A DNA stretch of 64,000 nt from positions 1,736,001 to 1,800,000 of the forward strand of contig NZ_CP010311.1 of assembly GCF_000827125.1 (NCBI RefSeq). Direction: 5' to 3'. The DNA is from Geoalkalibacter subterraneus. GTDB taxonomy: Bacteria > Desulfobacterota > Desulfuromonadia > Desulfuromonadales > Geoalkalibacteraceae. The notes beneath the pieces are model-generated. The model saw only the letters and a program-made list of their open reading frames with translations, searched no databases and was not told the origin of the DNA. Made by a program: the position numbers and the translations under genes. This document shows, in pieces, positions 47,199 through 55,728 of the stretch (its first letter is position 1; each line of letters begins with the position of its first letter).

Positions 47199-47297
47199 GG
47201 GTTTCCGACAAAGGTAAACCTCGGGTAACCGGGGGACACAAAGCCACGGGTCCTGCTCTGAAGGAAATGGGGACAGCCGGGTTGCCGAAAAAAACCT
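47199..47297 (+). promoter_or_regulatory. Cyclic-di-GMP-I (GEMM-I) riboswitch
   Basis: Conserved core strings in order: GACAAAGGTAAACC, then GGGACACAAAGCCACGGGTC (matching the GEMM pattern GGGACGCAAAGCC), a variable loop, and GGGGACAGCCGGGTTGCCG. GGTTT at 47200 can pair with AAACC near 47292 to close the first helix. It sits 44 bases before the subtilase start, with the ribosome site CGGAGG at 47329 just outside, so either translational or transcriptional control is possible. Upstream, 46860-47198 shows no gene; it probably contains the divergent promoters. Confidence 0.85.
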
Positions 47298-47340
47298 TAT
47301 TCATTGTTTGAACAACCAACAACACATTCGGAGGTCTATT

Positions 47341-49119
47341 GTGAAAGCACTGGGATGTCGTCCAAAAATTGTTACTGCGCTTATATTTGCGTCGCTTATC
47401 TGCCTGGTAGGTGGCGCCGCCTTGGCCGGCCAGGGACCCAAGTTCAAAGAGGGCGAGCTGCTGGTCAAACCCAAATCCGGGGCTGATCCTGCCCGGGTGG
47501 AGCAGGCGCTCAGAGGTCAGGGCGCTCATGCCTTTAAAGAGATTCGCGGCATTGGCGTCAAGGCAGTCAAAGTGCCGGCCCATGCCCAGGAAAAGGTGCG
47601 CGCCGCCCTGGCTCGCAATCCTCATATCGATTTTGCCGAACCCAACTACCTGGGGCAGGGGATGTCGCTACCTGACGACCCCTCCTACGGAACCCAGTGG
47701 CATCTGCCGAAGATCGCTGCGCCGGAAGGCTGGCAGATCAGTACAGGTGTTGAAACGGTACCTATTGCCGTAGTCGACTCAGGCGTTGACGGCAGCCACC
47801 CCGACCTGGGTGATAAATTGCTCGGGGGCTTCAATTTTCTTAATGGCAGCACGGATACCAGCGATGTTTTGGGCCATGGCACTGCGGTCGCAGGTACGGC
47901 TGCGGCTATCTCGAATAATTCCATCGGCGTGGCCGGTGTGGCGTGGCGCAATCCGGTGATGCCTCTGGTTGTGCTCGATTCGAGCAACTACGCCACCTAC
48001 AGCAACATCGCCTCGGCCATCATCTATGCAGTCGATAACGGCGCCAAGGTCATCAATGTCAGCATCGGCGGCACCAGTTCTTCTTTTACCCTGCAGTATG
48101 CCATCGATTACGCCTGGGATCGCGGCGCGCTGGTTTTCTGTGCGGCGGGCAATGCAAATTCAAGCGTTCCCAATTACCCTGCAGCCTGTGATCGTGCGGT
48201 GGCGATCTCTTCCACCGATTCCAGCGACAACCGCTCCTACTTCTCAAGTTATGGCGATTGGGTCGATCTGGCTGCGCCTGGTTCATCGATTTACACAACT
48301 CTGCGCGGCGGAGGCTTCGGCTACAAAAGCGGGACTTCCTTTGCGTCACCCGTTACTGCAGGCGTTGCGGCGCTGGTGTGGTCCGTCAATCCGAGTCTGA
48401 CTCACGAAGAGGTGCTCAACATTCTTCGCAACAATGCCGATGACCTGGGCGCACAAGGGTTTGATATCTATTTCGGCCATGGGCGTGTCAACCTTGCTGC
48501 AAGTCTTGGTGCGGCCGGTGAGTTTGTTCCCGAAGCCGATGGAACGGCCCCTGAAGTCAGCGTTGCTTCTCCTTCAGAGGGTGAAATTCTCCAGGGTACT
48601 GTCTCATTCACTGTTGCGGCGACGGATGACAATGGTGTGGATCGCGTTGAGTTCCTGATCGACGGTCAGGTCGTCGGCAGTGATTCCTCTGCACCCTATG
48701 CCTGGAGCTGGGACACGACTCAGTGGAATGACGGCGGCTATACTCTTTCTGCACGCGCGGTTGACCCTTCCGGCAACGAAGGGGTGTCCGGCAGCGTCGA
48801 TGTGCAGGTCAGCAATCCTGCCGAGCAGGAAGTGGTTGTTGAGGCAGATACTGAAGCGCCTGTCACCCTGATCACAAATCCGCTGCCTGGCGCCACAGTT
48901 GAGAAAAAAGAGCAGATCGATGCCCAGGCTTCTGATGATACCGGGGTTGTTCTGCTGGAGGTTTATCTCAACGGTTCGCTTATTTCGTCAACCTCCGACA
49001 ATACGTTGAGCCTGCGCTGGATGACTCATCGTCTGGACAGCGGCGCATACAAAATCGAAGTGCGGGCCTATGATGCCGCAGGGAACATGGCAAGCGATAC
49101 GGTGACGGTTTATAAATAA
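47341..49119 (+). CDS. Secreted S8 (subtilisin-like) serine peptidase with two Ig-like domains
   Basis: 592 residues from GTG at 47341 behind CGGAGG. Signal peptide 1-29 (ending GGAALA), propeptide of inhibitor-I9 type to about 105, then the catalytic domain: Asp146 in AVVDSGVDG, His179 in GHGTAVAGT, Asn271 in CAAGNAN and Ser333 in SGTSFASPV. After 400 come two bacterial Ig-like domains (SVASPSEGE, then LITNPLPGA) of about 90 residues each. All catalytic residues are present. Expression should respond to c-di-GMP through the riboswitch. There is no PEP-CTERM tail, so it is probably released or held by the Ig domains. Confidence 0.92.
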   Translation: MKALGCRPKIVTALIFASLICLVGGAALAGQGPKFKEGELLVKPKSGADPARVEQALRGQGAHAFKEIRGIGVKAVKVPAHAQEKVRAALARNPHIDFAEPNYLGQGMSLPDDPSYGTQWHLPKIAAPEGWQISTGVETVPIAVVDSGVDGSHPDLGDKLLGGFNFLNGSTDTSDVLGHGTAVAGTAAAISNNSIGVAGVAWRNPVMPLVVLDSSNYATYSNIASAIIYAVDNGAKVINVSIGGTSSSFTLQYAIDYAWDRGALVFCAAGNANSSVPNYPAACDRAVAISSTDSSDNRSYFSSYGDWVDLAAPGSSIYTTLRGGGFGYKSGTSFASPVTAGVAALVWSVNPSLTHEEVLNILRNNADDLGAQGFDIYFGHGRVNLAASLGAAGEFVPEADGTAPEVSVASPSEGEILQGTVSFTVAATDDNGVDRVEFLIDGQVVGSDSSAPYAWSWDTTQWNDGGYTLSARAVDPSGNEGVSGSVDVQVSNPAEQEVVVEADTEAPVTLITNPLPGATVEKKEQIDAQASDDTGVVLLEVYLNGSLISSTSDNTLSLRWMTHRLDSGAYKIEVRAYDAAGNMASDTVTVYK

Positions 49120-53578: not shown

Positions 53579-53630
53579 GTAAATTCCTCCTGGATTGGGC
53601 GAGGGTAGGCTCGCGCTAACTGTACAGCAT

Positions 53631-53733
53631 GGGGTCGCAACTCCCATGACAAGGGCCACTTTTCGCCATCCATGGCCGTTTGATTGGCGCCCTCCCTGGC
53701 GCCAAACACCCTTGTCATGGGAGTTGTGACCCC
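53631..53733. repeat. 103-bp hairpin element, copy 1
   Basis: Arms of 25 bases: GGGGTCGCAACTCCCATGAC... at 53631-53655 and its complement at 53709-53733, with one wobble. The interior has a smaller stem around TGGCGCC-CTCCC-TGGCGCC. A matching element is at 55510. It lies between the metY-like gene and the NFACT gene. Confidence 0.88.
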
Positions 53734-53818
53734 ACGGGGTGAATAGAGACTCGATATCAAAACTTGCAACAAATTACCGCAACCCATAAGATTATGCAAT
53801 TTCCGCAATGGGATGTTT

Positions 53819-55498
53819 ATGGATTCGCTTATGCTTGAAGCGGTGGTCGCTGAGCTTGAAGACCGATTGAGCGGCGCTCGCTTTGAAAAAATCTACCAGC
53901 CGGAATCCGATACGCTGATCGCAAAACTCTGGACCGGCCGCGAAACCCTTCGTCTGCTCTTTTCGGCTTCCCCCCGCTTTTCACGCCTGCATCTGACTGA
54001 GCAGAAATTCGCCAACCCTTCGGCTCCGCCCCGTTTCTGCCAGCTTCTGCGCGCGCGACTCAAACGGCTTGTGTCTGTCAGGCGGATTTCAGGTGAGCGC
54101 ATCGTCGAATTTCAGTGCAGCGGCCCTGAGAAGGAATCCTATCGTTTAGTCGTTGAATTGATGGGACGCCACGCCAATCTTCTCCTGGTGGATGCTCAAG
54201 GGATCATCGTCGATTTGTGGGAGCGGCGTGACGCGTCTGTCGGCGGGCGCGCGCTTCTGCCGGGGCAGCCTTATCAACTGCCTCCGCCCAGGCCGCTGCA
54301 ATCTCTTGAGAGCTGGGATGGAGAGTTGCCGCAGGATGCGGTGAGCACCGAGGACGTGGCGCGTTTTCTCGCTCAAACCCTGACACCTATCTCCTGGTTG
54401 GCTGCACTGGATCTTGCGTCGGGACAAAGCGCTGGGCACAATCTTCAGGAGTTGGTGCGCGACCTGTTGGAGGCGCTGCAGGAAAAAGCCTTTGAACCGG
54501 TTGTGGGCACCCTGGCTGATGATCTTGTCGTTTCGCCTTTCGCCCCCCGCTTTCTGGAACTTAAATCCAGGCAGCGTTTTGATTCTCCCTCTCAGGCGGC
54601 TGAAGCCTATTACCGTCAACTGATTGAAGAGAGCGGGGATTTGGGCGAGCAGCAGTTTCTGCGACGGCTGGTTGCCCGCCACCAGAAGCGGGTCAAGGGA
54701 CGGCTTGCTAAAATCAGGGAGCAGGAGAAAGATCTCGACAAGGCGGATAAGTTCAGGCTGTACGGCGAGCTATTGCTGGCCAACATGCACCTGGTGCGCC
54801 GCGGCATGGAGCAGGTGGAGGTTGAAAATTATTATGAGGACCCGCCCAGTCGGGTTGTTATCGACCTTGATCCCCGCCGCGCGCTTCATGAAAACGCGGA
54901 TGATTATTTTCGCAGATACAAGAAGATGTGCCGGGGTGCGGAGCACGTTGAACGCCGTCTGCATGAAACCCAGCAGGAGATGGACTGGATTGACGGTGTG
55001 GCATTCTCCCTGTCCGAGGCCAGGGAAGCCGAGGATCTGGTTGATATCCGGAGCGAACTTGAAGAAGCCGGCCTTGTCCCCTCTGCCGGACGCATGGAGA
55101 AGAGCTTCGCAAGAAATCGCCGACCCCGTCCGCAAGCTGCCTTAAGCCCTGGAGGGTTTCGCGTTTACTGGGGAAAGAACAGCAGAACCAACGATTATGT
55201 CAGCCGGGAGCTGGCTTCCGATGGAGATTTCTGGTTTCATGCCTACCAGGTGCCCGGCAGTCACGTCCTGCTGAAGGTGACAAAAAAAGGGGAAGCTGTC
55301 CCGGAGGAGGATCTTCTGTACGCGGCGGCGGTGGCTGCAGCTTATTCCCGCGCCGCTCAATCAGGGAAGGTCGAGGTGATGGCGGCCCGGGCCGAAGATG
55401 TGCGGAAGCCAAAAGGGGCGCGTCCCGGCCTGGTGACTGTCGCGGCTTATCGGACGGTGATGGTCAAGCCGCTGATACCCTCTAAAGAATCCTGGTAA
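53819..55498 (+). CDS. NFACT family protein (Rqc2/FbpA-like)
   Basis: About 559 residues, starting at MDSLMLEAVVAEL (53819; ATG at 53813 possible). N-terminal NFACT domain, a long coiled-coil middle (about 280-440), and the NFACT-R domain YWGKNSRTNDYVSRELASDG, then DFWFHAYQVPGSHVLLKV. The E/D-rich LRLLFSASPRFSRLHLT at 47-63 is typical. Relatives RqcH/Rqc2 bind stalled 50S-tRNA complexes and add alanine tails; fibronectin binding is a historical label. Flanked on both sides by the paired 103-bp hairpins. Confidence 0.88.
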   Translation: MDSLMLEAVVAELEDRLSGARFEKIYQPESDTLIAKLWTGRETLRLLFSASPRFSRLHLTEQKFANPSAPPRFCQLLRARLKRLVSVRRISGERIVEFQCSGPEKESYRLVVELMGRHANLLLVDAQGIIVDLWERRDASVGGRALLPGQPYQLPPPRPLQSLESWDGELPQDAVSTEDVARFLAQTLTPISWLAALDLASGQSAGHNLQELVRDLLEALQEKAFEPVVGTLADDLVVSPFAPRFLELKSRQRFDSPSQAAEAYYRQLIEESGDLGEQQFLRRLVARHQKRVKGRLAKIREQEKDLDKADKFRLYGELLLANMHLVRRGMEQVEVENYYEDPPSRVVIDLDPRRALHENADDYFRRYKKMCRGAEHVERRLHETQQEMDWIDGVAFSLSEAREAEDLVDIRSELEEAGLVPSAGRMEKSFARNRRPRPQAALSPGGFRVYWGKNSRTNDYVSRELASDGDFWFHAYQVPGSHVLLKVTKKGEAVPEEDLLYAAAVAAAYSRAAQSGKVEVMAARAEDVRKPKGARPGLVTVAAYRTVMVKPLIPSKESW

Positions 55499-55509
55499 CT
55501 TTTGAGCAT

Positions 55510-55612
55510 GGGGTCGTAACTTCCATGACAAGGGGCACTTTTCGCCATCCCTGGCCGTTTGATTGGCGCCCTCCCTGGCGCCAAACACCCTTGACATGGA
55601 AGTTACGACCCC
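55510..55612. repeat. 103-bp hairpin element, copy 2
   Basis: Arms GGGGTCGTAACTTCCATGAC... at 55510-55534 and its complement at 55588-55612, with one mismatch. Same length, interior and flanks (AGCAT before, GTGAATAGA after) as copy 1. At arm positions 8 and 13 this copy has T-A pairs where copy 1 has C-G. Confidence 0.88.
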
Positions 55613-55728
55613 GCGAGGTGAATAGATACGAATCCTGATGGGGTTTTTAACTGGCTTTTCTGGTATGATTTTCCGTGTTTCGCATGTGTTCCATGTTTTT
55701 GTAGAATCTTGTAGAAGGAATATGATTT

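Follow-up and report, generated by a model that had tools for sequence, protein, structure and literature searches.

Paired hairpins around a gene of Geoalkalibacter subterraneus belong to a dispersed family of probable IS66-type miniature elements with a candidate CsrA-binding RNA module

We analysed a 64,000-nucleotide stretch of Geoalkalibacter subterraneus (contig NZ_CP010311.1, positions 1,736,001 to 1,800,000; hereafter the window), in which two similar hairpins of the same length and orientation lie on both sides of a gene at 53813-55498. The family name of this gene, NFACT, is the label given by a first-pass annotation made from the sequence alone. That annotation described twin 103-bp hairpins bracketing the NFACT gene, with conserved bases beside them. 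Their positions, orientation and equal length hold, but each full element is larger (135 bp, at 53616-53750 and 55495-55629), the conserved flanks are in fact its terminal inverted repeats, and the pair makes up two of 63 loci in this genome. We describe these hairpins as members of a family of miniature inverted-repeat transposable elements (MITEs) whose body is a candidate CsrA-type RNA module. A covariance model of the family, R1, was built from 81 copies, and an R1 search of the window returned only the two known copies. The features of the locus are as follows:

53616..53750, minus strand (the strand with the GGA loops): element copy 1, 135 bp; R1 match at 53627-53736 minus, 127 bits; no recognisable target duplication (0/8)
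53616..53628, plus strand: left terminal inverted repeat of copy 1, CTAACTGTACAGC, 11/13
53738..53750, minus strand: right terminal inverted repeat of copy 1, 12/13
53631..53655 paired with 53709..53733, plus strand: 25-base arms of copy 1, from sequence and fold
53656..53708, minus strand: two-hairpin core of copy 1, hairpin A GGCGCC-AGGGAG-GGCGCC, then hairpin B GCC-ATGGAT-GGC
53813..55498, plus strand: gene between the copies, 561 amino acids with the present stop and 560 on the joined empty site; outside the element except for its stop codon
55487..55494 (left) and 55630..55637 (right), no strand: target-site duplications of copy 2, GAATCCTG, perfect 8/8
55495..55629, minus strand (GGA strand): element copy 2, 135 bp; R1 match at 55506-55615 minus, 126 bits
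55495..55507, plus strand: left terminal inverted repeat of copy 2, GTAACTTTTGAGC, 11/13; its TAA is the present NFACT stop codon
55617..55629, minus strand: right terminal inverted repeat of copy 2, 13/13
55510..55534 paired with 55588..55612, plus strand: 25-base arms of copy 2, from sequence and fold
55535..55587, minus strand: two-hairpin core of copy 2, with loops AGGGAG (hairpin A) and AGGGAT (hairpin B)

Both window copies are predicted to fold strongly. As RNA, they gave z-scores of -7.8 and -8.2, with 0/200 dinucleotide shuffles folding as well, and as DNA the fold was comparably strong (z -7.8 and -8.7). The first-pass annotation had reported that the arms differ at positions 8 and 13 and that both differences are compensated, which the sequence bears out: copy 1 has C-G and copy 2 has T-A at both positions, consistently in both arms. 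It had overlooked one non-Watson-Crick position per copy, a G.T at position 7 of copy 1 and an A.A at position 19 of copy 2, and the tally between the two copies is two compensated against two single changes.

A first search of the genome with copy 1 gave 40 long matches (40 of 70 candidates scored). In an alignment of 40 copies with their flanks, conservation spans about 135 bp and is bounded by the inverted ends GTAACTGTTCAGC and GTATCTATTCACC. We assessed ends and target duplications in 106 copies, comprising 64 from G. subterraneus itself (G000), 20 from genome G001, 17 from G032 and 5 from G002, G005 and G027. Both ends were recognised at ≥9/13 in 67 of the 106; the other 39, with unrecognised ends, were left out of the duplication count. 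Across the 8-bp flanks of these 67 copies, 383 of 536 letters match, compared with 162.8 ± 11.1 when partners were shuffled (z 19.8), while flank lengths of 7 or 9 bases gave a z of only about 5. The duplication is perfect (8/8) in 15 of the 67, window copy 2 included. An 8-bp target duplication is typical of IS66, and a search for the element ends yielded, in the same genome, a 1.7-kb element with the ends GTAACTATTCTGC and GTAACTATTCAGC. The 475-amino-acid protein encoded between them belongs to the IS66 transposase family (PF03050, E 2.6e-44; L186:2123-3550); the 8-bp sequences on the two sides of this element are not duplicates. Because of the inverted ends, the 8-bp duplications and the same-ended IS66 element in the genome, we consider the hairpins almost certainly members of a large IS66-type MITE family, and their many sites likewise fit the non-autonomous transposon that the first-pass annotation had listed among its options. 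An IS66-family transposase would act on the 13-bp inverted ends, move the elements and create the 8-bp duplications. IS66-type ends with 8-bp duplications point to a DDE transposase and not to a single-strand transposase; elements of the REP/RAYT or IS200/605 type were ruled out by the inverted-repeat ends with 8-bp duplications.

The first-pass annotation had also raised the idea that the pair is a unit mobilising the gene between its members, as one gene bracketed by two direct copies might suggest. The NFACT gene is not mobilised by the pair. The copies are direct repeats, each bounded by ends of its own, and copy 2 is flanked by a perfect target duplication. The other 61 of the 63 loci are at different places in the genome, with no further R1 copy in the window, and no element copy was found at 11 NFACT orthologue loci taken with about 1.5 kb on each side (of 15 relatives with an NFACT match). 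The chance that the pair forms such a composite unit is, in our judgement, practically nil. When the empty site is reconstructed by joining its flanks, the NFACT frame finishes with KES followed by a TGA stop; the insertion extends this to KESW, and the stop is then the TAA within the element end.

Several variants of the element were observed. The same 13-bp end occurs at L185:4004 and L189:1001 with different bodies, that in L185 being a perfect stem of 21 bp (AGGGACCGCAGGGCACGACGG) enclosing an unrelated loop; the element ends seem to be shared by further hairpin elements that carry different payloads. Short remnants that lack the core but retain ends and a portion of the outer stem lie at L184:3010-3056 (47 bp), L187:845 and L128:1001-1044, and are apparently internal deletions of the element. 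In L039 and L040 the core lies in the opposite sense to the ends, and both ends of L021 are of the right type. In L226 and L201 (from genomes titled Gammaproteobacteria) and in L113 (G. subterraneus), cores occur as inverted pairs about 40-50 bp apart.

To determine the spread of the family, we performed R1 searches of this genome and its relatives, as the first-pass annotation had proposed. In G. subterraneus, 63 distinct loci were found at E ≤ 1e-3 (150 of 2555 candidates scored, opposite-strand matches of the same loci uncounted), of which 43 score 109.8-130.9 bits, 16 score 64.8-98.7 and 4 score 41.9-57.0. Every one is on contig 1; contig 2 (about 242 kb) has 0/63, with about 4 expected by length. 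Within the order Desulfuromonadales, the family was found in 43 of the 136 genomes, G. subterraneus included (16 of 53 genera). A draw of 395 genomes from the phylum, searched with stricter filters and 9 candidates scored per genome, gave 6 positives, all in the order.

A 24-letter pattern made of hairpin B and the bases that follow it is found in Desulfuromonas, Malonomonas rubra and other Desulfuromonadales, and also in at least five genomes titled Gammaproteobacteria. When R1 was applied to the stretches so titled, 16 of 19 matched at E ≤ 0.1 (best 4.2e-13), in four of five genomes; it gave no match in L197, L208 and the sole Granulosicoccaceae stretch, L259. No IS66-type ends were seen in the stretches read from these genomes, where the module has other ends. 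A genome title may be mistaken: the record named Chloroflexi bacterium C2.bin.19 (L257, L266, L269) has Desulfuromonadales-type ends, and its csrA match equals that of G103, a genome of this order, in contig, position and E-value. The Chloroflexi title is probably a mislabel.

We next turn to the body of the element. On the minus strand of a window copy, a predicted stem of 26 pairs closes two hairpins. In the alignment of copies, stem pairing holds in 97.0% of cells, and double changes occur in 27 of 38 pairs, compared with 13.9 in shuffles and 10-14 in slid controls. The two loops are nearly invariant. Over the 81 copies, the hairpin A loop reads C (81), A (81), a free N, G (80), G (79) and A (80), and that of hairpin B reads C (81), A (81), N (G in 44, T in 37), G (81), G (81) and A (79); within CANGGA only N varies freely, and the base after the final A varies too. 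The loop-adjacent stem pairs are compensated between genomes, from C-G to U-A in hairpin B (63 versus 16 copies) and from G-C to U-A in hairpin A (63 versus 17 copies). A conserved single-stranded stretch, GAAAAGYG or UUCAUGCG, follows 3' of the two hairpins. Among 152 copies found by core similarity, GGA lies in predicted hairpin loops in 228 of 283 cases on the GGA strand and in 0 of 301 on the opposite strand; with 18 extra copies chosen by a GGA-containing pattern, the counts are 254/317 and 1/335.

The body could also belong to an ordinary IS66-type MITE that is palindromic and has no function of its own, the cores being alike because of recent master copies, the search by core similarity, template switching and recombination between copies. 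The ends, the duplications and the partner insertion sequence suffice for spread, and the core-less copies (L184, L187), the inverted cores of L039 and L040 and the two right-type ends of L021 are all in keeping with it. It accounts less well for the likeness of cores whose outer stems are unlike. Among 10 divergent G. subterraneus copies, arms have a likeness of 0.87 to their own partner and 0.55 between copies, compared with 0.84 for cores; in 46 copies from other genomes, the values are 0.75, 0.58 and 0.77. The 12 copies with at least 10 of 26 end positions changed differ on average at 2.1 of 52 core positions, although this contrast of core and end divergence is inflated, as copies were found by core similarity and indels near the ends shift some of them. 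The recurrence of the core with different ends in genomes titled Gammaproteobacteria, and a CANGGA motif in which N alone is free, also argue against a body without function. Taken with the pair changes and gene orientations given below, we judge this alternative rather unlikely.

A comparison with known RNA families suggests a function for the body. In Rfam, copy 1 matches TwoAYGGAY (RF01731) best, at 23.5 bits (E 1.4), below the cut-off of 43. We searched 13 genomes with the TwoAYGGAY model and found matches at E ≤ 10 in ten, none over that cut-off; a match was found in one of 14 control genomes. Of the 34 matches in G. subterraneus, each of the 12 listed falls on an R1 locus with the strand in agreement, and the TwoAYGGAY model matches elements of the family at full model length. 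The copies have the TwoAYGGAY architecture of two hairpins in a long stem, with loops ANGGAN in which N is mostly G or U and with GGA in paired hairpin loops, most poorly so in the energy folds of G032. TwoAYGGAY is a predicted CsrA-binding RNA (PMC4333381), and GGA in paired hairpin loops is a signature of CsrA/RsmA binding (PMC4333381, PMC11934962). Architecture, strand, loop conservation and spread are observed directly in the copies. Because architecture, strand and loops point this way, together with a partly matching and independent TwoAYGGAY model, a CsrA-type RNA module is the best reading of the conserved body, and we hold it to be somewhat more likely than not. For the element as a whole, we lean towards a 135-bp IS66-type MITE that carries a CsrA/RsmA-binding RNA module.

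Other Rfam candidates were set aside. At gathering level, the window gave only a c-di-GMP-I-GGC riboswitch elsewhere (RF03167, 71.7 bits; 47204-47290, plus strand, just 5' of a 603-amino-acid open frame at 47308-49119), and 17 further loci gave only two tRNAs. MicroRNA matches below cut-off were taken as chance matches of a long hairpin. On the plus strand there are weak matches to the Yersinia sRNA Ysr224 (16.4 and 15.3 bits, cut-off 70), at chance level.

G. subterraneus encodes csrA (79 amino acids, with R44 and N55), followed by a frame that is a putative fliW. N55 has been linked to FliW control (PMC13407953). Within the order, csrA was found in 28 of 43 element-bearing genomes and in 39 of 93 others (p 0.016), and among genomes at least 90% complete in 22 of 28 with the element and 27 of 56 without (p 0.01), both values uncorrected for kinship. 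All ten genomes with at least five matches and at least 95% completeness have csrA. It is also present in 15 of the 19 genomes behind the pattern matches; judged by contig and position, at least ten of these 19 are genomes of the order already counted.

Transcription, CsrA binding and a regulatory effect, which we infer, could be connected as follows. The module would be read from one strand, on which a long, well-paired stem that is free to change in sequence closes two CA-N-GGA hairpins, and a CsrA dimer would clamp the two loops of this RNA. GGA-strand transcripts might arise by read-through from a neighbour or from a start of their own, and would either titrate CsrA or mark the transcript that contains them. 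More tentatively, and at somewhat less than even confidence, the family may form a transposon-spread CsrA sponge: MITEs would have seeded a paired CsrA-binding module in dozens of copies in a lineage without a characterised CsrB/CsrC-type RNA. Since elements with other ends carry it in Gammaproteobacteria as well, the module would be a widely shared mobile RNA domain, and TwoAYGGAY would perhaps be a distant branch of it.

The first-pass annotation had concluded that double compensation implies selection for structure. This is unsafe, given that 13 of 26 compensated pair types lack a wobble path and that two copies have inverted cores. In G. subterraneus, the 26 distinct types comprise 13 of transition type and 13 of transversion type, the latter being those without a wobble path. 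Under one-sided stepwise change with selection, transversion types should lag, and in this genome they do not; the proportion is near that of the unpaired ends of 21 copies, which show 33 transitions and 39 transversions among 72 substitutions, in keeping with a MITE without function. In G001 and G032 they do lag: wobble-path types outnumber the others 5 to 1 and 6 to 2, respectively (together 11 to 3), which tells against a functionless body, and stepwise change occurs there too. Template switching between inverted repeats yields arm homogenisation and spacer inversion (PMC8604942) and has been proposed as maintaining RNA hairpins (PMC8794818). The 13 of 26 types without a wobble path, together with the inverted cores of L039 and L040 and the two right-type ends of L021, are suggestive, though not proof, of template switching between the arms, and part of the stem covariation is probably mutational in origin. 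Template switching cannot produce the fixed CANGGA loops or the fixed junction bases. Selection is better argued by the conserved loops than by compensation, and weakly by a GGA-strand preference for G-U rather than A-C (43:10 distinct cases, the three outermost pairs left out). This preference is much the same whether copies lie sense (17:5) or antisense (15:3) to genes, and it is weak support because the unpaired ends carry a similar bias. Even if CsrA does not bind, the family is a good test case for telling stem covariation that comes from DNA template switching from that due to RNA selection.

The same preference, as G.T over A.C on one strand, would fit single-stranded DNA as well as RNA, and the DNA fold of the window copies is as strong as the RNA fold. 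The fold might accordingly act as single-stranded or cruciform DNA, either as a protein site or in transposition. The IS66-type ends and 8-bp duplications, which suggest a DDE and not a single-strand transposase, speak against this, and we consider a DNA-level role very unlikely.

To place the copies relative to genes, we called gene neighbours with a codon-usage gene caller. Of the 106 copies, 100 have no overlap of more than 30 bp with a called gene; 73 lie at tandem sites, 9 have convergent and 17 divergent neighbours, 6 overlap with a called gene and the last is flanked by a gene on a single side. At the tandem sites, the median distance from the core edge to the upstream stop is 35 bp and to the following start 61 bp, the stop being the closer of the two in 50 of 73. 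This closeness to stop codons may reflect insertion tolerance or a 3'-end effect, and it makes a terminator or processing site, another option of the first-pass annotation, conceivable. In the case of a 3'-end effect, a hairpin behind stop codons would block exonucleases or terminate transcription, whichever way it is inserted; a strong stem works both ways, which would fit the even split of orientations given below, and an effect on upstream transcripts has been suggested for the YPAL repeats (PMC2229807). A 3'-end element, however, leaves the conserved CANGGA loops and the conserved single-stranded bases unexplained, and the mostly intergenic placement may only mirror insertion tolerance. 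We regard it as quite unlikely.

Several observations weigh against a CsrA-type module. At the 73 tandem sites, the GGA strand runs with the flanking genes in 37 copies and against them in 36, an absence of orientation bias that would also fit a plain MITE; antisense copies keep the core too (1.31 versus 1.95 differences of 52), and the GGA strand of window copy 2 is antisense to both neighbours. Because there is no orientation bias and antisense cores are kept, we rejected cis-regulation by read-through as what maintains the core. The unpaired ends show a 1.9-fold substitution bias in the same sense as the G-U excess, which reduces the latter to p 0.008, or 0.04 for rare cells. In the G032 copies, the minimum-energy fold often re-pairs the core and places GGA in 6 of 20 loops. 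The best TwoAYGGAY match of the 13 genomes (42.2 bits) lies in G112, the comparison with R1 loci covering matches of G. subterraneus; the best in G. subterraneus reaches 36.5 bits (E 5.7e-4), and no TwoAYGGAY match at E ≤ 10 was found in G104, G120 and Malonomonas rubra, all of which carry R1 matches. Finally, no csrA match was found in 6 of the 28 element-bearing genomes at least 90% complete, nor in 9 of 17 genomes with at least five matches and less than 95% completeness. As a separate observation, G032 copies L081-L097 often show an alternative pairing of hairpins A and B with the loop CGACAACAAG, possibly a second conformation in these predicted folds.

If the module does bind CsrA, transposition would have altered how many CsrA sites related genomes carry and would link a mobile element directly to a global regulator, and a jumping element may scatter regulatory RNA across bacterial chromosomes. 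We searched the literature on CsrA with miniature inverted repeats, sponge or MITE, and on palindromic or miniature repeats of Desulfuromonas or Geobacter, and found no such element reported among the papers listed. According to PMC3543383, its supplement tabulates the multicopy sequences of Pelobacter carbinolicus, and copies of the element may already be annotated there as anonymous repeats. The mobile element is of a known kind, and its body comes near a candidate CsrA-binding RNA already described without reaching the cut-off of that family.

Among known systems, YPAL/RU-2 of Yersinia (and ERIC/RU-1 and RU-3) are likewise small, dispersed intergenic stem-loop repeats, of 103-168 bp (PMC2229807). 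YPAL has other ends, duplications of 3-26 bp and internal inverted repeats, whereas the duplications here are 8 bp and the 13-bp repeats terminal; PMC2229807 does not mention CsrA. The antagonist RNAs CsrB/CsrC and RsmX/Y/Z share paired hairpins with GGA in the loop, but the elements described here have two sites per copy in many dispersed copies. IS66-family MITEs correspond in their 13-bp inverted ends starting GTAA, in the 8-bp duplications and in the same-ended IS66 of the genome; they differ in that the body here is a near-perfect hairpin whose two-hairpin core is conserved across families of the order. TwoAYGGAY likewise has a long outer stem of poor conservation that encloses, on one strand, a pair of hairpins with A-N-GGA loops, and its model aligns over all 168 positions. 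In contrast to TwoAYGGAY, the elements score below the cut-off, are 110-135 nucleotides long, have a conserved 3' stretch and occur in dozens of dispersed copies with transposon ends.

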